A program made the translations under genes and the position numbers. From positions 1 through 64,000 of the forward strand of contig JAFZWY010000009.1 of NCBI GenBank assembly GCA_017617125.1: DNA of 64,000 nucleotides. Direction: 5' to 3'. The stretch comes from Bacteroidales bacterium. Lineage in GTDB: Bacteria > Bacteroidota > Bacteroidia > Bacteroidales > ML635J-15. Positions 2,927-34,272 of the stretch are shown here, one piece after another (within the stretch, counting starts at the first letter, position 1; each line of letters opens with the position of its first letter). The notes under the pieces were generated by a model, which worked only from the letters and a program-made list of their open reading frames with translations, was not told the DNA's origin and did not search any database.

Positions 2927-3197
2927 TTCTCATTTACAAAAATCGGGCAGAAGTCCAGTAAGTCTTGATTTTTTCGACTCAAAACGGCTTAAATCTGCCG
3001 CCTGAGACATGTAACATGCTGAAACTTCACACGTTATATGGCATTTAGCAGTATTCGTCATTTCAAAAGTTTTAGAAAACAAAGATGCTTTTGCAATTGT
3101 CGTGCCGTTAATTTGCACCTTTTTCACACCTGCAATGCAATTTTTGCAAGCAGAGAACTTTCTTAATTCCGATACCTTATAATATAATACCATATTT
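2927..3197 (-). other. Transcribed leader of the serpin gene; contains an uncertain 87-codon ORF
   Basis: Between the promoter at 3205-3234 and the serpin ATG at 2890 lie about 300 nt. An 87-codon ORF (ATG at 3193, stop at 2930) fills most of it, with five cysteines and no recognised domain or signal peptide. The same stretch can form several helices: CATG-TTA-CATG, CGGC/GCCG in 2985-3000, and GGCAG pairing with CTGCC across 2946-2999 around an inner AGTC/GACT helix. Whether this is a small protein gene, a structured leader RNA or a dispersed repeat cannot be decided from one sequence. Confidence 0.4.
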
Positions 3198-3204
3198 CAG
3201 ACGA

Positions 3205-3234
3205 CAAAAATAATACATTGTTTTTTGTGGACAA
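3205..3234 (-). promoter_or_regulatory. Promoter of the serpin leader transcript
   Basis: Minus-strand TATTTTTG (3205-3212) lies 19 nt downstream of a TTG (3232-3234), a good Bacteroidetes -33/-7 pair. The predicted start is near 3197, four nucleotides before the ATG of the uncertain leader ORF. Confidence 0.5.
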
Positions 3235-3880
3235 TAAAAGTTTTTCCTGATTTTGGAAAACTCATTTTTAGGGGTAAATAGGGGAGATTTTATTTTATGA
3301 AGAGTTTGTCCACAGCTAAACAAATAATCCCAAATTCACAATTTTTATTTTTGTAAATCGGATACTCAATTTTACAAATGTAATGCAATACAAATCCAAA
3401 ATATTGGCAATATACAAATGTAAAACACAGAATCAATCATATGAATATTACATATGTAAAAATTATTACAAATCATCACACACAAAATTTAACAATTGTT
3501 AACGATAATTAATTTACTATTAATATTAAATATAAAATACTATTATTCAGTTAATTATAAATTTAATATAAAGTATGAGTTTATTAAAAAACAGGCTTGT
3601 ATCTAATAGTTTCACCATCTAATGGCAAAACGCCCATAAATAGAAGTATAATATTAGTATTAAGTGCTTATTGTTCAGTTATATATATCTATTGTCATAA
3701 CTAAACACTTTACTTTGATCATAATAATGTTTAATATTGAATTACAGGATATTGTGTTGTTCGTTTTATTGTAGCCCTAATTTTACAATTTACAAATGTA
3801 AATACTATTAGTGTTGATAACTTTTTACATTTGTATTGAATTAATATATTACATTTGTAAACTCAAAAGAGACTAAAAAA
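3213..3880. promoter_or_regulatory. Long AT-rich control region with TTACAwwTGTAA operator array
   Basis: No gene was found in this stretch. It is extremely AT-rich and holds six full copies of a 12-bp palindrome TTACA-(A/T)2-TGTAA: near 3372-3383, 3412-3423, 3448-3459 (perfect TTACATATGTAA), 3790-3801, 3825-3836 and 3849-3860, plus half sites at 3389-3395 and 3466-3473. The last copy is 20 nt before the start of the XRE regulator. In the TTACATTTGTAA orientation each copy contains TACATTTG, itself a match to the TAnnTTTG -7 box, so binding would block promoter use. TACA-N2-TGTA also resembles BlaI/MecI operators, but no such repressor is nearby. Autoregulation by the adjacent protein is inferred. 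Confidence 0.7.
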
Positions 3881-4402
3881 ATGATAGACAGAATTAAGAA
3901 AATAATGGAAGCTGAAGGTATGTCGGCTGGTAAGTTTGCTGATGAAATTGGAATCATAGGTTCACGCCTTTCTCATTACCTATCTGGCAGAAATAATGTA
4001 TCGCTCGACTTGGTGATGAGAATTCTGGAACGTTTCCGCGGTATAAATCCCGAGTGGCTTATGTTTGGTCGTGGCGAAATGTACAAGTCGGCAGATACGA
4101 AAACAACATCTCATATTTATGAGCCAAATCTTTTCGACAGTCAGCCGCTGTCTACAAATTATCCCTTAACTGAAAATGCAGACGAAAAATCGTCACCAGT
4201 TGATGACGAACCGGATATTTTCGATTCTGAAGAACTTAACGACAAGCCGAATGATATAATACCACCAAGCCAAAGTGTTGATAATTATAACGATATAGAC
4301 TTGCATAGACCACAAAAAACACAAAAAAGCATTGATCGGATATTGGTGATGTATACCGACTCTACATTCGATTGTTATACGCCAAACGGACATAAGCAGT
4401 AA
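3881..4402 (+). CDS. XRE-family transcriptional regulator, probably autoregulated
   Basis: A 173-residue cytoplasmic DNA-binding protein. Residues 1-65 form a helix-turn-helix of the XRE/Cro type (SAGKFADEIGIIGSRLSHYL, then INPEWLMFGRGEMY, a signature of Bacteroidetes regulators of this size). Residues 70-145 are acidic and low-complexity, probably disordered. A short C-terminal module ends with RILVMYTDSTFDCYTPNGHK. There is no peptidase or ligand domain. The gene stands alone between its operator-rich upstream region and clpC, which has a separate TAnnTTTG box. The target genes are unknown; the array of palindromes in front of the gene strongly suggests it controls itself. Confidence 0.85.
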   Translation: MIDRIKKIMEAEGMSAGKFADEIGIIGSRLSHYLSGRNNVSLDLVMRILERFRGINPEWLMFGRGEMYKSADTKTTSHIYEPNLFDSQPLSTNYPLTENADEKSSPVDDEPDIFDSEELNDKPNDIIPPSQSVDNYNDIDLHRPQKTQKSIDRILVMYTDSTFDCYTPNGHKQ

Positions 4403-4467: not shown

Positions 4468-6993
4468 ATGGAAAAGAACTATTCCCAGTCGCTGATAGAA
4501 ACATGGCAATACGGCAAGGAAGAAGCTGTAAGACTTGGCAGTAGCATGCTAAATCCCGAGCATTTGCTGTTGGGCATTATTCGTAATACCGAATGCGAGG
4601 CCATGCAGAAACTCAAAGAGCTTAATGTCAACACGATAGATTTGAAACGAGCCATCGAAGTCAACTATAAGTCGTCGGAACTTGCACTTACAAATCCCGA
4701 GGATGTTGTCGACAGCAAGCCGATTTCGCGGATACGCTTGTTTATGCATTCCGAAGCCATATCACTGGGTAGCAACGAAATAAATACAAACCACCTGCTT
4801 CTTGCAATTTTAAAGGTTCCCAGCAACCTGCTTCTTGTACTTGACAAGTTCAACCTCAATTACGACCTGTTCAGGATGACGATGGAAATTGGCGAATGGG
4901 AGATGGTGCAGGACGAGGATGGCAACGATAACGATATGGATGATGATCTGCCTGGCGACGGCATGGAGTTCTCGAACTTCGACAGGTATGATGAAGAGCC
5001 CCGAAGCCACAGGATGCGCAAGCGCAGCAAGTCGAAAACGCCTATGCTCGACCAGTTTGGCGTTGACCTTACTGCTGCAGCCTTGGAAGATAAGCTCGAT
5101 CCTGTGTACGGACGCGAAACCGAAATCAACCGTATAACGCAGATTTTGTCGCGTCGCCGCAAGAACAATCCTGTGCTTATTGGCGAGCCAGGTGTCGGAA
5201 AGTCGGCAATTATCGAAGCTCTTGCCACAAAGATTGTCAAGAAGGAAGTTTCGCACGTACTTTTCGACAAAAAGCTCATAATGCTCAATATGACCTCGAT
5301 GGTGGCAGGTACAATATACCGAGGCCAGTTCGAGGAGCGAATGACCGACCTGATAGATGAACTCAAGGCTTGTCCGGATGTTATCCTATTTATCGACGAG
5401 ATACACACGATAGTCGGAGCTGGTGACACTTCTGGCAATTTCGATGCAGCTAACATTTTGAAGCCGGCGCTTGCTCGTGGCGAAATACAATGCATCGGTT
5501 CCACAACTCTCGACGAATACCGTAAGATAGAACGCGACGGCGCGTTGGAACGTCGTTTCCAGAAAGTTATCGTAGAATCGCCAACTGTGGAAGACACTAT
5601 ACAAATATTGCAGAAAGTAAAGGGTAAGTACGAAGATTATCATAAGGTTGAGTATACCGACAAGGCCATTGAGGCTTGTGTTCGTCTTACCGACAGATAT
5701 ATAAGCGATCGCGCTCAGCCCGACAAGGCTATCGATGCCCTCGACGAAGCTGGAGCAAGGGTACATACGTTCAAGGTGTCGGTTCCGAACAAGATTCTTG
5801 AACTGGAATCGGAACTGCAGAAGACTCGCGATCAGAAGATGCAATCGGTAAAGGACCAGCAGTTCGAGGTTGCCGCAGCATACAGGGACAAGGAACGTGA
5901 GATAGAAATGTCGGTTGAACAGCTTAAAAAGCAGTGGATGAACGACATTAACGACGACAAGAAAGTCATAACCGAAGAGGAGGTTGCCGAGGTTGTCGCT
6001 ATGATTTCTGGTGTTCCCGTCAAGCGTGTGGCGCAGACTGAAGGCGCTCGTCTGCTCGAAATGGGCGAAGCCCTTTCTGGAAAGATTATCGGTCAGGACG
6101 AAGCTATCAGCAAAGTTGTGAATGCTATACACAGAAACCGTGCTGGACTTAAAGACCCGAACAAGCCTATCGGAACGTTTATATTCCTTGGTCCAACTGG
6201 CGTTGGAAAGACCCAGCTCGCAAAGATTCTGGCAAGATATCTGTTCGATACCGATGATGCCCTTATACGTATCGACATGAGCGAATATATGGAGAAGTTT
6301 GCAGTTTCACGTCTTGTTGGTGCGCCTCCAGGATACGTAGGCTATGAAGAAGGCGGTCAGCTTACAGAACGTGTACGCAGGAAACCGTATTCTGTAGTAT
6401 TGCTCGACGAAATCGAGAAGGCTCACCCGGATGTATTCAACATTCTGCTGCAGATTCTCGACGAAGGACGTCTCACCGACAGTTCGGGCAGAAAGATTGA
6501 CTTCAAGAATACCATCCTTATAATGACTTCCAATATCGGATCACGTCAGCTGTCGGACTTTGGCGTTGGTGTAGGTTTCGATACGAAGGCAAGAAAGGAT
6601 GCATATCTCGAAAATACAAAGTCTGTGATTGAGAATGCGTTGAAAAAGACCTTCTCGCCGGAATTCATAAACCGTATCGATGATATTGTGCAGTTCAACA
6701 CTCTTACAAAGGACGATATTTGCAAGATTATCGACATCGAGCTTGCTGGTCTGTACGAAAGGGTAAAGGATATGGGCTTCACTCTAAAGATAGAGCCGTC
6801 GGCAAAGGACTTTATTGTTGAAAAGGGATTCGATCCGAAGTTCGGTGCACGTCATCTGAAACGCGCAATACAAAGATACGTCGAAGACGTACTGGCCGAA
6901 TACATACTGAAGGCCGATGTGTCTTCGGAAAATCTGATTACCCTCGAATTCGACGAAAAAGAGGGAATGAAAGTTTCAATGTCGAAAATATAG
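4468..6993 (+). CDS. clpC: ClpC-type ATP-dependent Clp protease ATP-binding subunit
   Basis: An 841-residue Hsp100 unfoldase. Domains in order: Clp N-domain repeats (residues 1-145), an acidic linker rich in Asp (about 149-180), AAA module 1 with Walker A GEPGVGKS (239-246) and Walker B VILFIDE (about 305), a middle region with a UVR-type motif (QQFEVAAAYRDKEREIE, about 465), AAA module 2 with Walker A GPTGVGKT (from 575) and VVLLDEIEKAHPDV, then the C-terminal D2-small domain. The UVR motif and short middle domain mark ClpC rather than ClpB. It unfolds substrates for ClpP or acts in protein quality control in the cytoplasm; clpP is not in the window. The N-terminal acidic linker is longer than in Gram-positive ClpC. 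Confidence 0.93.
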   Translation: MEKNYSQSLIETWQYGKEEAVRLGSSMLNPEHLLLGIIRNTECEAMQKLKELNVNTIDLKRAIEVNYKSSELALTNPEDVVDSKPISRIRLFMHSEAISLGSNEINTNHLLLAILKVPSNLLLVLDKFNLNYDLFRMTMEIGEWEMVQDEDGNDNDMDDDLPGDGMEFSNFDRYDEEPRSHRMRKRSKSKTPMLDQFGVDLTAAALEDKLDPVYGRETEINRITQILSRRRKNNPVLIGEPGVGKSAIIEALATKIVKKEVSHVLFDKKLIMLNMTSMVAGTIYRGQFEERMTDLIDELKACPDVILFIDEIHTIVGAGDTSGNFDAANILKPALARGEIQCIGSTTLDEYRKIERDGALERRFQKVIVESPTVEDTIQILQKVKGKYEDYHKVEYTDKAIEACVRLTDRYISDRAQPDKAIDALDEAGARVHTFKVSVPNKILELESELQKTRDQKMQSVKDQQFEVAAAYRDKEREIEMSVEQLKKQWMNDINDDKKVITEEEVAEVVAMISGVPVKRVAQTEGARLLEMGEALSGKIIGQDEAISKVVNAIHRNRAGLKDPNKPIGTFIFLGPTGVGKTQLAKILARYLFDTDDALIRIDMSEYMEKFAVSRLVGAPPGYVGYEEGGQLTERVRRKPYSVVLLDEIEKAHPDVFNILLQILDEGRLTDSSGRKIDFKNTILIMTSNIGSRQLSDFGVGVGFDTKARKDAYLENTKSVIENALKKTFSPEFINRIDDIVQFNTLTKDDICKIIDIELAGLYERVKDMGFTLKIEPSAKDFIVEKGFDPKFGARHLKRAIQRYVEDVLAEYILKADVSSENLITLEFDEKEGMKVSMSKI

Positions 6994-23702: not shown

Positions 23703-24533
23703 TTACGGTTCCACCATAATGTTCAGCGAGAAATTCGAATTCGGACTAAGCTGACGTTCGTTTATAGTTGCATTGTCGCAAAAGTTTTCGACCGAAAGAT
23801 TTGTCTTTTCGTAAATTGGAATTACAGCGTCGTATATTCGTTCGATGATTTTCACCTTGCCGTCCTTCGAATACGTTATTTTTTGCGGAATCCAGCCGGT
23901 GCCACCAACTTGGATGAAATTATCGAATGTAATCGCATATATATGCCCATCGATCTTTGTGCGCTGAACCATTCTCGGCAATAATGTCCTTGAATCAAAC
24001 CATATCTGGTTCATATTCATTGTGTTATTATTGTAATCATCAATGCCGACAATGTAATATTTCCGGTCAGCAGTGTCTGTATAACTGCAAAAATCCGATG
24101 TGTTTACTATTCCGGACTCATTTAAACGATTTTCGGCATCTTTTGCAGACATTCCGTATAAGTCCATGACTACCAGCACTAAATCGTTTATATCGGGACG
24201 CGACGAAACCATTTCTCCGCCAGCAAATGCATAAATTGTGTCGTTAATGTAGATATAGCCGTCATCATTAATCATATCTGTCTTAAGGATATGCTGCGAC
24301 GGCCTTACATATTCGGCACTGCATGTACTGCGCTTTTCTGAATTGTCGTCATCGAACCTTATGACCGAAATCATATACCTGATGTTGTTGAACCAGTTAC
24401 ACTCGTACTTTTTCTCTATTGCCGAAAGCAGTGATTTTGTGGAAGTTATGTTAGAGCATGATGTTGCCGACAAAAGGAAAAGCAATCCGATCGCCAGCAC
24501 TACAAACGTTCTATTTCTAAACATCCTACTCAT
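23703..24533 (-). CDS. Lipoprotein of unknown function
   Basis: A 276-residue protein with a lipoprotein signal (MFRNRTFVVLAIGLLFLLSATSC). The mature part is rich in beta strands with repeated aromatic/charged pairs (GYIYINDTIYAFAGGEMVSS; YYIVGIDDYNNNTMNMNQIW; GHIYAITFDNFIQVGGTGWI). This layout recalls LolA/RseB-like lipid-binding half-barrels, but no motif secures that. The start could be ATG at 24533 or at 24524, the latter with AGTAGG just upstream. It follows hutI after about 14 nt and is probably cotranscribed with it. Confidence 0.7.
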   Translation of the reverse strand: MSRMFRNRTFVVLAIGLLFLLSATSCSNITSTKSLLSAIEKKYECNWFNNIRYMISVIRFDDDNSEKRSTCSAEYVRPSQHILKTDMINDDGYIYINDTIYAFAGGEMVSSRPDINDLVLVVMDLYGMSAKDAENRLNESGIVNTSDFCSYTDTADRKYYIVGIDDYNNNTMNMNQIWFDSRTLLPRMVQRTKIDGHIYAITFDNFIQVGGTGWIPQKITYSKDGKVKIIERIYDAVIPIYEKTNLSVENFCDNATINERQLSPNSNFSLNIMVEP

Positions 24534-24547
24534 TCTCAATCAAATAT

Positions 24548-25798
24548 CTACAAAATCTGTCCGTTAAGGATTACTGTATCAATCAAATCGGTACAATATG
24601 CGTACGGCATAAATTCTATCGACGGTATTTCCTTTGTGATAAATACGTTAGCCTTCTTTCCTACAGTAATACTTCCTGCTATGTCGCTGACTCCCATTGC
24701 ATAAGCTGAATTCAATGTTGCAGCTATAATAGCCTCTTCTGGAAGCATCTTGTAGTTTACGCAGGCAAGCGACATCATGAACTTCATGTTTCCTGCCGGT
24801 GATGATCCAGGATTGTAGTCGGATGCAATTGCGACTGGCAGTCCGGCCGATATCATCTTGCGTGCTGGTGCATACGGCATATTAAGGAAGAATGCAGCTC
24901 CCGGCAGAATTGTCGGCATGGTTTCGCTGTTCTTCAGAACAGCAATTTCCTCGTCGCCAGTGTATTCGATATGGTCAACCGAAAGAGCGTTGTACTTTAC
25001 ACCCACCTGTATGCCGCCCGACTTTGCCATTTCGTTGGCGTGAATCTTGGGACGCATTCCATATTTTATTCCTGCCATAAGTATGCGTTCGGTCTGCTCG
25101 GTTGTGAAGAATCCCTTGTCGCAGAACACATCAACAAAGTCAGCCAGTTCTTCGGCTGCAACCAACGGAAGCATTTCGTTTATAATCTTATCGACGTATG
25201 CGTCAGGATCTTCCTTGTATTCCAACGGAGTTGCGTGTGCTCCAAGGAAAGTCGAACGAACAATCAGCGGAGTCGTTTCCTTGATGCGCTTGATTACGCG
25301 CAACATCTTGATCTCGCTCTCGGTGTCAAGTCCGTAGCCGCTCTTGATTTCCACAGCACCAGTACCAAACGAAATTATTTCGTTTATTCGTTCCATTGCC
25401 TGGTTGTAGAGATCCTTCTCGCTGGTTTTTCTCAGGCGCTCTGCCGAATTGAGGATTCCCCCACCCCTTTTTGCAATCTCTTCATAGCTAAGGCCTCGTA
25501 TCTTGTCACTGTATTCGATTTCGCGGCTACCTGCATAAACCAGATGTGTGTGCGAGTCGCAGAACGACGGGAAAACCATCTTGCCCTTGGCATCAATCTC
25601 AATGCTCTTTTCGTCGTCTTCGTCCCAGTTGGGATTCAGTTCCGACATCTTGCCATACGAATGAATCTTGTCACCATCTAATATAAGGTATGCATTCTTT
25701 ATGGTCTTCAGCTTCGACATTTCCTTGCCTTTTGCCAGCAGACGTCCACTTTCGTCAACGTTTACGAGTTCCTTTATGTTACTAATCAGAGTCTTCAT
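24548..25798 (-). CDS. hutI: Imidazolonepropionase
   Basis: A 416-residue amidohydrolase that opens the ring of 4-imidazolone-5-propionate in histidine degradation, cytoplasmic. Metal and substrate motifs are in order: DSHTHLVYAG (HxH), GGGILNSAERLR, EIKSGYGL, FLGAHATP, HANEMAKSGG, SVDHIEYT and ASDYNPGSSPAGN. Length is normal. Other hut genes are not in the window, so the pathway is split in this genome or located elsewhere. It follows the DUF721 gene after only a few bases. Confidence 0.95.
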   Translation of the reverse strand: MKTLISNIKELVNVDESGRLLAKGKEMSKLKTIKNAYLILDGDKIHSYGKMSELNPNWDEDDEKSIEIDAKGKMVFPSFCDSHTHLVYAGSREIEYSDKIRGLSYEEIAKRGGGILNSAERLRKTSEKDLYNQAMERINEIISFGTGAVEIKSGYGLDTESEIKMLRVIKRIKETTPLIVRSTFLGAHATPLEYKEDPDAYVDKIINEMLPLVAAEELADFVDVFCDKGFFTTEQTERILMAGIKYGMRPKIHANEMAKSGGIQVGVKYNALSVDHIEYTGDEEIAVLKNSETMPTILPGAAFFLNMPYAPARKMISAGLPVAIASDYNPGSSPAGNMKFMMSLACVNYKMLPEEAIIAATLNSAYAMGVSDIAGSITVGKKANVFITKEIPSIEFMPYAYCTDLIDTVILNGQIL

Positions 25799-25802
25799 AT
25801 AT

Positions 25803-26096
25803 TTATCTTACAATTAAATCGTCTATACAATTGCCGCCGACCATTTGGTTTATCCTATATACCAGCTGATTGCGGATTAACAATATTTCACTTCTTATTA
25901 TCGAAGATTTCACCTTTACTATCATCGTTCGTCCCGAAAAAGAAATGTCTTCAGTCGAATTTGCTACGTATTCCCCCGAGATTTCTTTCCACAAAGACTT
26001 TATCCTGTATTTGCGGTAGCTTTCTCGCAAATTCGGGTTTGCATCAAGCACATTCGACAATATTGACCCTATCGGCATTTCGCCCTGCCTGTCCAT
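25803..26096 (-). CDS. DUF721 (DciA-like) protein
   Basis: A 97-residue protein in the DUF721 family. The signature RIKSLWKEISGEYVANST, then VKVKSSIIRSEILLIRNQL and the C-terminal VGGNCIDDLIVR are visible. DciA-type proteins help load the replicative helicase in bacteria lacking DnaC; Bacteroidetes members are short versions of this kind. The ATG at 26096 gives the usual length; a longer reading to 26126 would need a TTG start. Confidence 0.8.
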   Translation of the reverse strand: MDRQGEMPIGSILSNVLDANPNLRESYRKYRIKSLWKEISGEYVANSTEDISFSGRTMIVKVKSSIIRSEILLIRNQLVYRINQMVGGNCIDDLIVR

Positions 26097-26432
26097 TTCT
26101 TTTTTTGACTTTTTAAAGGAGGACAAAGTTACAACTTTTTCGCCGAATTAAGCAAGATAAAAAAGGCATTTCGGAAAATTAAATCGGGAATATTTTTTGG
26201 CAGGTATTACAATATTAATTACCTTCGCAACTTTAAAATGAATTTGAGACAGGTTAAATAAATTGCTGTTTGACGATATGTATATAGGCTCAAAAAATAC
26301 TGATATACAAAGTGATGCCTTTGGCGTTGCATCGATTGGCATGCCTGTTCCATATATGTTGAAACATTTAACTCTTCAACCGTTTTTACGGTTGACATTA
26401 ATAAATTAATACACACTTAATTATTCTTATTT
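26097..26432 (+). promoter_or_regulatory. Intergenic region with competing hairpins before the DUF349 gene
   Basis: No gene seen. GATGC/GCATC pair at 26314-26333. TCAACCG (26376-26382) pairs with CGGTTGA (26389-26395), but part of the same left arm, TTCAAC (26375-26380), can instead pair with GTTGAA at 26358-26363. The two pairings exclude each other, which is the form of an attenuator, though no T-tract follows. Confidence 0.35.
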
Positions 26433-28397
26433 ATGGACGAATTATTAAACACCGAGAACTCTGTTGAGAACTCTATCGAGAATGAAAACATTGAAACACA
26501 AGTTGTTTCGGAAGTAGAACTAGCAGCACAAGAAGCTGAACAAAAGTATGAAGAACCGGTTGCAGAAACCGTAGCCGACGTACCACAAGAAATCGTACCG
26601 GAGCAAGAACCAGCAGTCGAAAATCAGCCAGAATCTAAGGAACCTGAAGTTACCGAAGCTGATTTCGCAGGGTTGAACAAGGAAGAAATTCTTGAAAAAA
26701 TCCGTTACTATATACACGATTCCGAAAAGGAAGACTGCAAGAAGGAAATAGACATTCTTCGCAAGCTGTATTACGACAAGCAGCGCGAAGATCATGAAAA
26801 TATCAAGCGCGAACTGCGCGAAAAGGCAGGCGAAGGCGTTGAAATAGAAATGCCGAAGGATCCGACCGAAGACTATTTCAAGGAACTTATGGAGGATTTC
26901 CGCAAACAGCGTGAAGAACGCATGCGCCGCCAGGAAGAAATCAAGGAAAAGAACTACGAGAAGAAACTCGCAATTATCGAGAAAATCAAACAGCTTGGTA
27001 GCAGTGAATCGGCATCGCAGTCGTACGAGGAGTTCCGTAACTTGCAAAAGGAATGGAGCGAAATCGGACAGGTTCCAGCCGACAAGAACAAGGAACTCTG
27101 GGAAAACTACCAGTTGCATGTTTCCAACTACTACTATCTCTTGAAGTTGAACAGGGAAGCTCGCGAACTCGACTACAAGAAGAATCTCGAACAGAAGATT
27201 GCTCTTTGCGAGAAAATGGAAGAACTTTTGCTTGAAACAAATATTCTTACTGCATACCGCAAGTCGGTGGAACTCTTCAAGGAATGGAAGGAAATCGGTC
27301 CGGTTCCGAACGACAAGCGCGAAGAAATCTGGGACAGATTCAACGACGGACGTACCAAGATTTTCAACAACTTCAAGGAATACAACGAACACCAGAAGGC
27401 TGAACGCGAGACCAACTACGAACAAAAAGTTTTGCTCTGCGAAAGAATCGAAGCCATGGTTGCCGACGATGCTCTGCCGCAGAACGGAAAGGACTGGGTT
27501 GTTGCTTCGCAGAAAGTATTGGAACTTCAGGCATTGTGGAAGACTATCGGTATGGTTCCGGCTGCAGTCAACACCGAAATCTACGAAAGATTCCGCACTT
27601 CGTGCAACAAGTTCTTCGATCTTAAGAAGGAGTACTTCGACAGAATGAACAGCGACCTCGAAGAAAATCTGCGCAAGAAGACCGAACTGTGCGTAACTGC
27701 CGAATCGTTGCAGGACAGCACCGACTGGAAAAAGACTACCGAAATGTTCTACGACCTTCAGAAGAAGTGGAAGGAAATCGGTCCCGCACCAAAGAAGCAC
27801 TCCGACCAGATATGGGGACGCTTCCGCGCAGCATGCAACAAGTTCTTCGATGCTAAGAGCCAGTTCTATTCAAACATTGAGGCCGAGCACCAGATGAACC
27901 TCGAAAAGAAGGAGAACCTTATTTCCGAAGTTAAGGCTTACGTTCCAGTTGAAGACCAGGCTCAGAACATTGAGAAAATCAAGGAATTCAGAACCCGCTG
28001 GAACGAGATCGGCTATGTTGCATCGTCAGAAAAAGACCGTCTGTACAACGAGTTCAAGGAAGCTATCAACAAGATATTCGCCACAATAAACATCAACCGC
28101 AACGACATGGAATTGTCGACATTCAATTCGCAGGTAGAACTGATGAAGGATGCTGGCGAAGTAACGGCTCTGCAGAAAGAACGCAGTGCTATTGTCCGTA
28201 AGATGCAGGATCTTACTGTCGAAATCGCACAGATTGAAAACAATCTTGGATTCTTCTCTAGCGGATCCGATTCTATTGTAAACGAATTCCACAAGAAAAT
28301 CGAAAAGATCAAAAATGAAATTTCTGTTCTGAAAGAAAAGAAGAAAGCAATAGATATCGCAGAACGTGAAATGAAAGGTGTAAACGATGAACAATAA
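26433..28397 (+). CDS. DUF349 repeat protein
   Basis: A 654-residue, highly charged and helical cytoplasmic protein. After a Glu-rich disordered N-terminus (1-75) come five DUF349 units, each centred on a W-x-x-I-G motif: EWSEIGQVP, EWKEIGPVP, LWKTIGMVP, KWKEIGPAP and RWNEIGYV. A coiled coil closes the chain (IEKIKNEISVLKEKKKAI). DUF349 proteins are common in Bacteroidetes and their role is not settled. The last 11 bases overlap the TonB-dependent receptor gene, suggesting coupling. Confidence 0.9.
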   Translation: MDELLNTENSVENSIENENIETQVVSEVELAAQEAEQKYEEPVAETVADVPQEIVPEQEPAVENQPESKEPEVTEADFAGLNKEEILEKIRYYIHDSEKEDCKKEIDILRKLYYDKQREDHENIKRELREKAGEGVEIEMPKDPTEDYFKELMEDFRKQREERMRRQEEIKEKNYEKKLAIIEKIKQLGSSESASQSYEEFRNLQKEWSEIGQVPADKNKELWENYQLHVSNYYYLLKLNREARELDYKKNLEQKIALCEKMEELLLETNILTAYRKSVELFKEWKEIGPVPNDKREEIWDRFNDGRTKIFNNFKEYNEHQKAERETNYEQKVLLCERIEAMVADDALPQNGKDWVVASQKVLELQALWKTIGMVPAAVNTEIYERFRTSCNKFFDLKKEYFDRMNSDLEENLRKKTELCVTAESLQDSTDWKKTTEMFYDLQKKWKEIGPAPKKHSDQIWGRFRAACNKFFDAKSQFYSNIEAEHQMNLEKKENLISEVKAYVPVEDQAQNIEKIKEFRTRWNEIGYVASSEKDRLYNEFKEAINKIFATININRNDMELSTFNSQVELMKDAGEVTALQKERSAIVRKMQDLTVEIAQIENNLGFFSSGSDSIVNEFHKKIEKIKNEISVLKEKKKAIDIAEREMKGVNDEQ

Positions 28398-30711
28398 TCT
28401 AAAATTGAAACTTATGCTAATAGTTGCGTTTGTAATGGGCGCAACTATGGCATTTGCACAGACAGGAACGCTGAAGGGGTTTGTCCTTGACAAGGATAAT
28501 GGTGAGCCTTGTATGTTCGCCAATATTTCTATTCCTGTAAACGGCATAAATATGGGGGCGTCGACCGATGCAAACGGATACTTTTCAATTCCGAAAATAC
28601 CAGTAGGAACGCATTCGGTTACAATTACTTACTTGGGATACACCGATCTCACAGAAGAATTTACCATAGCAAAGGAAGGCCAATTGGTTTCCAAGAACTT
28701 CATGATGTCAAAATCGGCTGTAGTACTTCAGGAAACTGTAGTCTCGGCCGAACGAGAAGAACAAATGACACAGGTAAGGGCTTCTATCATAAAGGTCTCT
28801 CCTACCCAAATCAAGCAGTTGCCATCGGTTGGCGGCGAACCCGATATTGCTCAGTTCCTGCAGGTATTGCCAGGTGTAACTTTCACTGGCGACCAGGGCG
28901 GTCAGTTGTATATTCGTGGCGGTTCAAACATTCAGAACCTTGTGCTTATCGACGGCATGACAATCTACAACCCCTTCCACTCCATAGGTCTGTTTTCGGT
29001 ATTCGATTCCGACATTATCAGGAATGCCGACGTATATACAGGTGGCTTTAATGCCGAATATGGCGGACGTGCTTCGTCGGTAATGGACATAACCATGAAG
29101 GACGGTAATGCACAACGCTTCGGCGGCAAGTTCTCGGCAAGCACATTCGGCGCAAAGCTGATGCTTGAAGGACCAATCGTAAAGTTCAAGGAAGGCAAAA
29201 CAAGTTTGTCGTACATATTGTCGGCAAAGACCTCCTACCTCGAACAAGCATCCAAATATATATATAGGTATATAAACGATGGTGCCGGTCTTCCGTTTAA
29301 TTTTACCGACGTATATGGAAAACTGTCGCTTGCAGCACCAGGCGGAAGCCGTGTAAACCTCTTCGGTTTCAACTTTAACGACAATGTCAGCTATCAGGGA
29401 CTCAGCGACTTGCACTGGCGTACATTCGGTGTAGGCGGAAATGTTTCGGTAGTACCGCCAAGCTCATCGATGATGATAAAGGCTCACCTGTCCTACTCCA
29501 ACTATGCAATTTCGATGCAGGCTCTCGAAAATTATCCTAGCGCAAGTTCCATCAACGGCTTTAACGTCGGCTTGGACTTCGTATACCACATGGGTAAGAA
29601 CGACTTTACATGGGGTCTCGAAATGCTTGGATTCGCAACCGACTACGACTATTTCAACTCGGTTGGACGAGAACTCTCACAAGAGGAATACAGCACCGAG
29701 CTTGCTGCGTTTGCAAAGTACAAATGGAACTTGGGTAGCGTCGTCATCGAACCGGGATTCCGTCTGCACTACTATGCGTCGATGAGTTCTGTATCACCAG
29801 AACCTCGCCTTGGCATAAAGTACAATGTAGTTGAAAAGTTCAGACTGAAACTCGCAGCTGGACTGTATTCGCAGAATCTTGTAGCAGCCAACAGCGACAA
29901 GGATGTTGTTAACCTGTTCTACGGTTTCCTGAGCGGTAACCTTCCGAGCATGCCCGACACATACAAGGGTGAAATCCTGAAGACAAAGCTGCAGAAGTCG
30001 GAACATATAATTTTCGGTTTCGAATGGGATATTGTCAACTCGCTGAACCTTAACGTCGAAGGCTACCTGAAGAACTTCGACCAGATAACTACCATCAACA
30101 GAAACAAGATATACGACGACAATACAACCAATGCTTCGCGTCCTGATTTCCAGAAGAAGGACTTCATGGTTGAGTCTGGATACGCATACGGCGTCGACTT
30201 CCTGCTGAAGTACGACACCGAGGACTGGTATATCTGGGCTGTATATTCTCTCGGATGGGTTCGCCGTAATGATGGTGTTGATGTTTACATGCCAAACTAC
30301 GACCGCCGCCACAATATAAATCTTGTTGTAACATACAGATTTGGCAAGAACAACTCGTGGAATGCAAGTGCAAGATGGAACTACGGTTCGGGATTCCCGT
30401 TCACGCTTACATCGGCATTATACGAAAACCCTGACTTCACAAACGGCATAAACACTCAGTACTGGACGAACAACGGTACGCTCGGCGTAGCATATTCCGA
30501 TCTTAACACAGGACGTTTGCCCAACTATCACCGTCTCGACCTTACGATAAACAAGGTATTCGCATTCGAGCACAACATGAAGCTCGAAATCAACCTTGGC
30601 GTAACCAACGTATATAATCGCGCTAATATATTTTATTTTGATAGAATTGAGCATAATCGTGTAGACCAGCTACCGATTATGCCAAGCTTTGGTATGAACT
30701 TTACATTTTAA
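28387..30711 (+). CDS. TonB-dependent receptor with carboxypeptidase-like N-domain
   Basis: A 774-residue outer-membrane transporter. Signal peptide about residues 1-25 (ending AFAQ), a CarboxypepD_reg-like beta-sandwich (26-110; GTLKGFVLDKDNGEPCMFAN, GYFSIPKIPVGTHSVTITY), the plug (about 120-235; LPSVGGEPDIAQFLQVLPGV, LYIRGGSNIQNLVLIDGM) and a 22-strand-type barrel ending in FGMNFTF with a terminal Phe. No SusD-like gene is next to it, so it is unlikely to be a glycan-utilisation pair; the substrate is unknown. It overlaps the DUF349 gene and precedes pyrG by six bases. Confidence 0.93.
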   Translation: MNNNLKLKLMLIVAFVMGATMAFAQTGTLKGFVLDKDNGEPCMFANISIPVNGINMGASTDANGYFSIPKIPVGTHSVTITYLGYTDLTEEFTIAKEGQLVSKNFMMSKSAVVLQETVVSAEREEQMTQVRASIIKVSPTQIKQLPSVGGEPDIAQFLQVLPGVTFTGDQGGQLYIRGGSNIQNLVLIDGMTIYNPFHSIGLFSVFDSDIIRNADVYTGGFNAEYGGRASSVMDITMKDGNAQRFGGKFSASTFGAKLMLEGPIVKFKEGKTSLSYILSAKTSYLEQASKYIYRYINDGAGLPFNFTDVYGKLSLAAPGGSRVNLFGFNFNDNVSYQGLSDLHWRTFGVGGNVSVVPPSSSMMIKAHLSYSNYAISMQALENYPSASSINGFNVGLDFVYHMGKNDFTWGLEMLGFATDYDYFNSVGRELSQEEYSTELAAFAKYKWNLGSVVIEPGFRLHYYASMSSVSPEPRLGIKYNVVEKFRLKLAAGLYSQNLVAANSDKDVVNLFYGFLSGNLPSMPDTYKGEILKTKLQKSEHIIFGFEWDIVNSLNLNVEGYLKNFDQITTINRNKIYDDNTTNASRPDFQKKDFMVESGYAYGVDFLLKYDTEDWYIWAVYSLGWVRRNDGVDVYMPNYDRRHNINLVVTYRFGKNNSWNASARWNYGSGFPFTLTSALYENPDFTNGINTQYWTNNGTLGVAYSDLNTGRLPNYHRLDLTINKVFAFEHNMKLEINLGVTNVYNRANIFYFDRIEHNRVDQLPIMPSFGMNFTF

Positions 30712-32328
<1,617 letters not shown>

Positions 32329-32331
32329 TAT

Positions 32332-34272
32332 ATGGATAAAAACACGATTATTGGGCTTGTAATCATAAGTGTCCTCCTTATCGGATACATGTTCCTCTCG
32401 CGTCCTAGCAAAGAGGAAATAGCCGAACGTCAGCGCGTGCAGGATTCAATCGCCCACGAGCAGATGGTAAAGGAAGAAGAAGCCAAGGTTGCCGCCGACC
32501 TGCTGAAGGCCGAAGCCGAAAAAGCAGAAAAGGAAGCAGCCGCCATGGCCGACAGCCTGAGCCCAGAACAACTGGATTCTATTAAGAACGCCAAACTGCG
32601 CAGCGATTATGGAATTTTCGCAAAGTCGGTAAATGGCGAAAACAAGTACACTGTTGTCGAGAACAACAAAATGATTGTAACCTTCCTGAACAAAGGTGGT
32701 AAAATATACTCCGTACAGCTGAAAGACTATAAGACTTTCAGCCAGGAACCGCTGATTTTGTTCGAGAATGACGAAAATTCAACCTTTGGTATCGTTTTGG
32801 CAATCAACGGCAAGCCGATGGTTACCAACAATATGTATTTCGAACCTCTGCTTGCAGGCAAGACTCCTGCCAGCGATACCATCAAGGTCGGCGAAAACGG
32901 CTTGAACCTGGCTATGCGTCTTACTGCTGATGCTGGCAAGTACATTGAATACAACTACGTAATCAAGCCCGACGACTACATGCTCGACTTCAGCTTGAAC
33001 ATCGTGGGTCTGAAGGACGAAATGAAGGACAACACCAGCACACGCATGCAATGGTACGTCGATGTGCTTGCTCTCGAAAGAGGCCGCGACTGGGAATCGA
33101 ACAACACAACAGTATTCATGCGCATGTCGGATGAGGAAATCGAAAACCTCAACGAAATGAAGGATGCCGACAGCTACGAAACCAAGGGAAGCGCCCAGTG
33201 GATTGCCTACAAGCAACAGTTCTTCTCCTCTATTCTCGTTTCTAAGGACAATTCGTTAGGCGACCCGAAGATTTCGTTGCTGAAACTTGATGAAAACGAG
33301 AATCCTAGAGCATTAAAAACTTTCAAGTCCGACTTTTTCCTCGATATTCCCGACGAGGCAAAAGTAACCAAGGATTTCAGCTTCTACTTTGGACCTAACA
33401 AGTATTCGTTGCTTAAGGACTACGACATGGCCATGGAAAAGGTCATTCCGCTTGGTTGGGGAATTTTCGGCTGGGTAAACAAGTATGCCATCATTCCGAT
33501 GTTCAACCTGCTAGGTCGCGGAATTGCAAATTATGGTATCATCATTCTGCTGATGACGATCATCATCAAGCTTGTACTTTTCCCGCTCACTTACAAGTCG
33601 TACATGTCTACTGCAAAGATGCGCGTACTGAAGCCGCAACTCGATGAAATTGCAGCCAAGTACCCCAAGGGCAAGGAAATGGAACGCCAGCAGGCACAGA
33701 TGAGCCTCTACCAGAAGGCGGGTGTAAGTCCGATGGGCGGCTGCTTGCCATTGTTGCTCCAGTTCCCGATACTTATTGCAATGTTCCGCTTCTTCCCTGC
33801 TTCTATCGAATTGCGTCAGCAGCCATTCTTGTGGGCAAGCGACCTTTCTTCGTATGATGCTATTCTGGAATGGAGCACCAATATTCCTATAATTTCATCG
33901 CTTTACGGAAACCATGTAAGCCTTTTCGCATTGCTGATGGCAATATCAATGATTGTACAGCAGAAGATGACAAGCAGCCAGAATCCTAGCAACTCAATGC
34001 CCGGCATGAAGGTCATGATGTGGATGATGCCAGTGCTGATGCTCTTGTGGTTCAACAAGTATTCGTCAGGTTTGAGCTACTACTATTTACTCGCTAACTT
34101 GTTCAGTATTTTGCAGACATGGATTATCCAGCGTTTCGTAGTGAACGAGGATAAACTTCTTGCTCAGATGGAAGCCAACAAAAACAAGCCAAAAAAGAAA
34201 TCAAAGTGGATGCAAAGACTTGAGGAAGCTTCGAAGAAACAGCAAGAGGAAATGCGTAAAAGACAGAAATAA
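32332..34272 (+). CDS. yidC: Membrane protein insertase YidC
   Basis: A 646-residue inner-membrane insertase. An N-terminal helix (NTIIGLVIISVLLIGYMFLS) is followed by an Ala/Glu/Lys-rich linker, the large periplasmic beta-domain (about 85-350) and the conserved 60KD_IMP core with five helices (IIILLMTIIIKLVLFPLTYK; AKYPKGKEMERQQAQMSLYQ; PLLLQFPILIAMF). A basic tail (KPKKKSKWMQRLEEASKKQQ) probably contacts ribosomes. Typical Bacteroidetes length. A strong terminator follows. Confidence 0.96.
   Translation: MDKNTIIGLVIISVLLIGYMFLSRPSKEEIAERQRVQDSIAHEQMVKEEEAKVAADLLKAEAEKAEKEAAAMADSLSPEQLDSIKNAKLRSDYGIFAKSVNGENKYTVVENNKMIVTFLNKGGKIYSVQLKDYKTFSQEPLILFENDENSTFGIVLAINGKPMVTNNMYFEPLLAGKTPASDTIKVGENGLNLAMRLTADAGKYIEYNYVIKPDDYMLDFSLNIVGLKDEMKDNTSTRMQWYVDVLALERGRDWESNNTTVFMRMSDEEIENLNEMKDADSYETKGSAQWIAYKQQFFSSILVSKDNSLGDPKISLLKLDENENPRALKTFKSDFFLDIPDEAKVTKDFSFYFGPNKYSLLKDYDMAMEKVIPLGWGIFGWVNKYAIIPMFNLLGRGIANYGIIILLMTIIIKLVLFPLTYKSYMSTAKMRVLKPQLDEIAAKYPKGKEMERQQAQMSLYQKAGVSPMGGCLPLLLQFPILIAMFRFFPASIELRQQPFLWASDLSSYDAILEWSTNIPIISSLYGNHVSLFALLMAISMIVQQKMTSSQNPSNSMPGMKVMMWMMPVLMLLWFNKYSSGLSYYYLLANLFSILQTWIIQRFVVNEDKLLAQMEANKNKPKKKSKWMQRLEEASKKQQEEMRKRQK

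Follow-up and report, generated by a model that had tools for sequence, protein, structure and literature searches.

The window, i.e. the whole stretch of 64,000 nucleotides that was analysed, contains two groups of short palindromes in front of an XRE-type regulator gene, which raises the question which protein recognizes them and what is controlled from there. The palindromes lie in an AT-rich stretch of 687 bp (3194-3880, 22.7% G+C) between a conserved small reverse-strand ORF and the XRE gene. The distal cluster is formed by the putative operators D1 (3372-3383, TTACAAATGTAA, exact), D2 (3412-3423, ATACAAATGTAA, one mismatch) and D3 (3448-3459, TTACATATGTAA, exact), the proximal cluster by P3 (3790-3801, again TTACAAATGTAA, exact), P2 (3825-3836, TTACATTTGTAT, one mismatch) and P1 (3849-3860, TTACATTTGTAA, exact). 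Between them lies a spacer of 330 bp with about 21% G+C (3460-3789). The initial annotation of this DNA had described two clusters of three, 330 bp apart, and this layout as well as the positions are right. Its number of six full palindromes has to be lowered to four: exact TTACAwwTGTAA is found only at 3372, 3448, 3790 and 3849, and the sites at 3412 and 3825 carry one outer mismatch each.

The array is not due to base composition, since 2000 dinucleotide shuffles of the AT-rich stretch gave on average 0.0075 exact sites (maximum 1) against the four observed. The same shuffles gave a mean of 0.24 near sites (maximum 3) against six. A scan of the whole genome for TTACAwwTGTAA, which had been proposed earlier, returned eight exact sites, half of them (four) upstream of the XRE gene, while the reversed control pattern also occurs four times genome-wide.

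The XRE gene (3881-4402, plus strand) encodes a protein of 173 amino acids, which consists of an HTH_3/CI-type domain, a linker and a C-terminal hairpin according to Pfam, alignments and an AlphaFold2 model. The scores for HTH_3 (PF01381, 29.7 bits) and Phage_CI_repr (PF07022, 26.1 bits) lie above the respective cut-offs of 23 and 22 bits. In the model residues 1-70 form a five-helix CI-type HTH, residues 71-150 are disordered and residues 154-166 form a confident beta-hairpin, so that beyond the HTH the model contains just the disordered linker and the hairpin and no dedicated globular oligomerisation domain. The hairpin consensus KIxxFYSDxTFxxYxP is kept phylum-wide in the alignments, and the hairpin is likely the contact between dimers. 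In a clade in which ClpC is 78-94% identical the XRE proteins share 53-63% identity, and the operators stayed fixed meanwhile. Foldseek against the PDB returned generic HTH matches only (HigA, P2 C and 434 Cro; best E 0.007). An assignment as HigA antitoxin was rejected, as TIGR02607 scores 19.9 bits compared to a cut-off of 47.7 bits and no conserved small partner gene lies beside the XRE gene. Most members also share an LF dipeptide within the linker, which the alignments show to be conserved across the phylum as well. The linker residues 81-85, EPNLF in this protein and QLDLF, QGNLF or QTDLF elsewhere, resemble sliding-clamp binding peptides, and in a rather improbable, speculative reading such an E/Q-x-x-LF motif could tether the regulator to another machine, e.g. 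the sliding clamp.

XRE orthologues were found in 34 of 41 relatives, nearly always as a single hit. Throughout the genus the arrays occupy matching positions: the counterparts of P1, P2 and P3 lie at about -32, which is fixed, -56 and -91, those of D3, D2 and D1 at about -433, -470 and -509. Named genomes (of Bacteroidales, Marinifilum, Aquimarina, Pontibacter and others) provided 80 loci, the upstream sequences of which, 60 kb in all, contain 142 perfect sites compared to a single one for the reversed control. In 126 non-redundant upstream regions 565 sites have one mismatch or none, and the best shuffled palindrome reached 39. A proximal together with a distal site is present in 43 of the 56 protein clusters formed at 50% identity. 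In the named-genome scan good sites are wanting upstream of some orthologues (Parabacteroides, some Dysgonomonas). The initial annotation had suggested such a comparison of orthologues and had named missing upstream conservation as an outcome that would speak against it. With 565 sites to 39 and 142 to 1 this objection is answered for the array, the palindromes of which are kept across the Bacteroidota.

The same linkage is seen from the DNA side. A protein-blind search, which asked only for two sites separated by 8-38 bp, matched 54 of 393 Bacteroidales genomes, compared to one for the reversed pattern as control. At 26 of the 30 loci read from this search a member of this particular XRE family adjoins the array; among the others, L212 and L224 lie at contig ends and L216 has a masked stretch. 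This XRE family is also found beside the array in three of the four genomes with a pattern match in the phylum sample. One genome seemingly without the XRE gene (G001) keeps the array right at a contig end, which truncates the locus before the gene. Because array and gene stay linked even if searched for without knowledge of the protein, there is strong evidence, which is not proof, that the XRE protein is the binder of the array. The earlier proposal of autoregulation by the adjoining XRE protein thus gains strong comparative support from an array-gene linkage that extends through the phylum.

We therefore read the locus, with a probability of roughly three in four, as that of an autoregulated, CI-like and host-encoded regulator, for which the palindromes would be the operators of its own promoter, bound cooperatively and probably connected by looping. 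A predicted -7 promoter box TACATTTG (3850-3857, plus strand), which agrees with the Bacteroidota consensus TAnnTTTG (PMC7366714), is contained in P1 and precedes the start codon by 23 nt, and P2 is located where a -33 element would be. It had been claimed that every site contains TACATTTG in one orientation and that operator and sigma contact are therefore the same. The first part was loose, as the site at 3448 (TTACATATGTAA) has no such sequence; the second is supported for the gene-proximal site, which alone is consistently oriented across species as a -7 box pointing to the gene, and not for the remaining five. The nearest site has a TT centre (TTACATTTGTAA-type) at 77 of 96 loci, and the other proximal sites favour the opposite orientation with 65 AA versus 26 TT (TT 26/137). 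Operator and -7 box hence coincide at the nearest site only, where alone the TT-centre orientation is enriched. Since the nearest site covers the -7 box and the next one the -33 region, a filled proximal cluster would block RNA polymerase, and repression by promoter occlusion, i.e. autorepression, is the simplest reading.

The upstream sites might instead serve for activation, because no -33 box is conserved: among the orthologue loci no conserved TTTG at canonical spacing was found, and the second site sits about there. The XRE protein might activate its own promoter and the operon that follows, or act on them in a dual manner, the upstream sites and the one at -33 replacing the -33 box and P1 acting as a shut-off when the protein is abundant. 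CI-type proteins can activate as well as repress, and the XRE gene heads a dihydroorotate dehydrogenase operon at about 40 of 111 loci, which would suit such a role. However, the position of P1 over the -7 box favours repression, and weak -33 elements are reported to be general among Bacteroidota promoters, as is a missing -33 motif for another member of the phylum (PMC7366714). An activating or dual function is for us an unlikely alternative to autorepression.

The arrangement of the sites bears on how the autorepressor might work. The spacings within the clusters concentrate at 12-13, 23-25, 34-35, 46-47 and 58-59 bp and follow a period of 10.85 bp (R=0.47, whereas a jittered null reaches 0.16 at its 99% level). 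This phasing of about 10.9 bp brings the sites onto one helix face, as cooperative binding would lead one to expect. XRE dimers would bind TTACAnnTGTAA via the CI-type helix-turn-helix, and dimers on neighbouring sites of the same face (12-13, 24, 35, 46-47, 58 bp) would bind cooperatively within each cluster. The distance between the clusters is kept as well. In ten congeners the spacer measures 329-332 bp, and the median pairwise identity of its sequence is 0.51 compared to 0.50 for shuffled sequences. A length that is kept without the sequence suggests a geometric role, for which a loop is the simplest explanation. In other clades the spacer lengths differ, each clade keeping its own (e.g. 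294-298 or 221-238 bp). As the between-cluster distances range from 137 to 480 bp among clades and a helical phasing of these distances was looked for across clades and not found, a rigid loop is unproven. The looping considered in the initial annotation is consequently favoured within clades, by fixed spacer length and free sequence, and not across them; a DNA loop joining the two operator clusters appears probable from this comparison. Protein-protein contacts, probably of the C-terminal hairpins, would connect distal and proximal cluster in a loop of about 340 bp, which would sharpen or strengthen the control of the promoter. A second transcript, which had been offered as the other explanation for two clusters, finds no support, as the spacer gave no Rfam hit for a structured RNA and contains no tRNA, and no divergent gene lies consistently upstream.

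A repressor of the BlaI/MecI/CopY family encoded elsewhere might bind the palindromes in place of the XRE protein, given that their core is identical to the classical TACAnnTGTA of the CopY/BlaI operator TACANNTGTA (PMC7253601) and that a BlaI-family gene is present in 10 of 10 congeners tested. However, the arrays follow the XRE gene and not BlaI, and the BlaI genes of the congeners are preceded by another conserved palindrome, AACTA...TAGTT, instead of TACAnnTGTA. Since BlaI has its own operator in these genomes, we reject it as a likely binder and regard this explanation as very improbable; the resemblance to BlaI/MecI operators that had been pointed out is true for the core and is otherwise superficial. 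The palindrome AACTA...TAGTT before the BlaI-family genes (L249-L257, e.g. L252 at G000:C1:16363-16704) is probably the BlaI operator of the genus. Hardly credible is an array that is bound by the XRE protein as a structural or chromosomal site, i.e. as an element of the replication terminus, of partition or of the origin. In its favour, parC-type centromeres likewise consist of an array in front of the gene for the binding protein, and a GC-skew switch is located about 20-30 kb from the locus in G000, G015 and G022. However, the congener G011 carries the same array without a skew switch near the locus, for which reason a terminus role was dropped, and the neighbours differ between lineages; the terminus link is synteny within a single clade.

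The genes that accompany array and regulator vary. Members of the window clade carry a serpin gene upstream of the array, and the gene of a ClpC/ClpA-type AAA+ ATPase (4468-6993, plus strand), a neighbour in this clade only, begins 65 bp downstream of the XRE gene. At about 42 of 111 loci pyrK and/or pyrD come after the XRE gene on the same strand in an operon-like order, and at 17 loci a convergent ndk gene does. The pyrD partners include enzymes of class 1B as well as of the quinone-dependent type. Several lineages of Bacteroidales have the XRE gene as the first gene of a pyrK-pyrD operon (L055, L056, L061, L062, L105, L121, L128), and a quinone-dependent pyrD follows it elsewhere, e.g. at L073. 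For the window clade pyrKD was rejected as a retained target, as pyrK is located elsewhere in the genome without a site. Because array and regulator both persist there nonetheless, the conserved unit is the array together with the regulator. A wider regulon was rejected too. In a survey of G000 and five congeners, which left out six further G005 sites and by its exact matching would miss degenerate ones, the other perfect sites lie mostly in ORFs and no intergenic target is held in common, and hence strong sites do not reveal a wider regulon. The frequent partnership with pyrK-pyrD in other lineages might point to nucleotide status as the signal, and we treat the link to pyrimidines as a lead and not as a result. 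A far-reaching version would be a near-core, single-copy regulator of the Bacteroidota, whose looped complex at its own promoter, the only conserved target, sets the expression of the following operon, ancestrally pyrK-pyrD, and which would be a hitherto undescribed sensor that responds to nucleotide or growth status; this we put forward as a rather improbable speculation.

Further elements were noticed around the locus. A small ORF (87 aa) or leader is located upstream of the serpin gene (2930-3193, minus strand, start codon at 3193). Its frame is partly kept in congeners, it contains an element conserved at the DNA level, CGGCACGACAATTGCAA, and on the minus strand it is preceded by what looks like a canonical promoter, TTG-N19-TAnnTTTG (3234 to 3205). 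Upstream of the distal cluster lies the G-rich element AGGGGTAAATAGGGGAGATTT (3270-3290) with the core AATAGGGGAGAT, which is present with at most one mismatch in 11 of 11 members of the window clade. A clade-specific palindrome TTAACAATTGTTAA (3489-3502), located immediately inward of the distal cluster, is present in exact form at nine loci, every one of them in the window clade. The GC skew changes its sign at about 24000-34000, at a place that matches in G015 and G022 and is probably the replication terminus region of the clade.

The XRE protein and its array are absent from the literature searched, in which motif queries matched papers on CopY-type proteins only. To our knowledge, few Bacteroidota transcription factors of the XRE type have defined operators. 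Here regulator, operator, promoter layout and two-cluster geometry are fixed comparatively throughout a phylum to which major gut bacteria belong. The locus offers a compact, testable case of probable promoter DNA looping outside of phages and lac-like systems, the overlap of the operator with the unusual -7 box of the phylum is open to base-by-base testing, and the association with dihydroorotate dehydrogenase is a lead on pyrimidine control in Bacteroidota.

Among known systems CopY, BlaI and MecI share the operator core TACAnnTGTA, but are winged-helix proteins; the array does not lie beside a Penicillinase_R (PF03965) gene, and the BlaI genes are located elsewhere with another operator. 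The non-canonical LexA of Bacteroidetes belongs to the same phylum and has in common the HTH_3 (CI-type) domain and the autoregulation presumed here, and a diverged member binds TTAC-AAATT-GTAA (PMC8565304). However, non-canonical LexA carries an S24 peptidase and binds CTAA-N5-TTAG or GGA-N5-TCC (PMC8565304), whereas the Pfam search detected no S24 peptidase domain (PF00717) in the XRE protein, and a LexA-like membership was rejected for this reason.

The closest parallels are CI proteins of phages. Phage 186 CI binds the pR sites and the flanking sites FL and FR, and loops and wraps DNA (PMC8053113). Alike are the combination of an HTH with a separate oligomerisation part and that of a proximal cluster with distal sites; in contrast, the C-terminal part is here only a beta-hairpin after a disordered linker, the operators are different and the gene is not a phage gene. 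With lambda CI and its operators OR1-3 and OL1-3 the XRE system shares the CI-type HTH, the palindromic operators in two groups of three, a regulator promoter that is located among them and presumably the looping between the clusters. In contrast to lambda it is chromosomal and not part of a prophage, both clusters, about 340 bp apart, lie upstream of the gene, and it comprises neither an S24 peptidase domain nor a cro-like divergent gene. The operator clusters are helically phased (10.85 bp) as in CI-type looping repressors, with binding being predicted, and the locus has no prophage context, its neighbours being the serpin and ClpC genes and elsewhere pyrKD and ndk. In its working the XRE protein would thus be a CI-type looping repressor that stands outside of the known ones, as it is host-encoded, does without known oligomerisation domains and would use an operator of the CopY/BlaI type.
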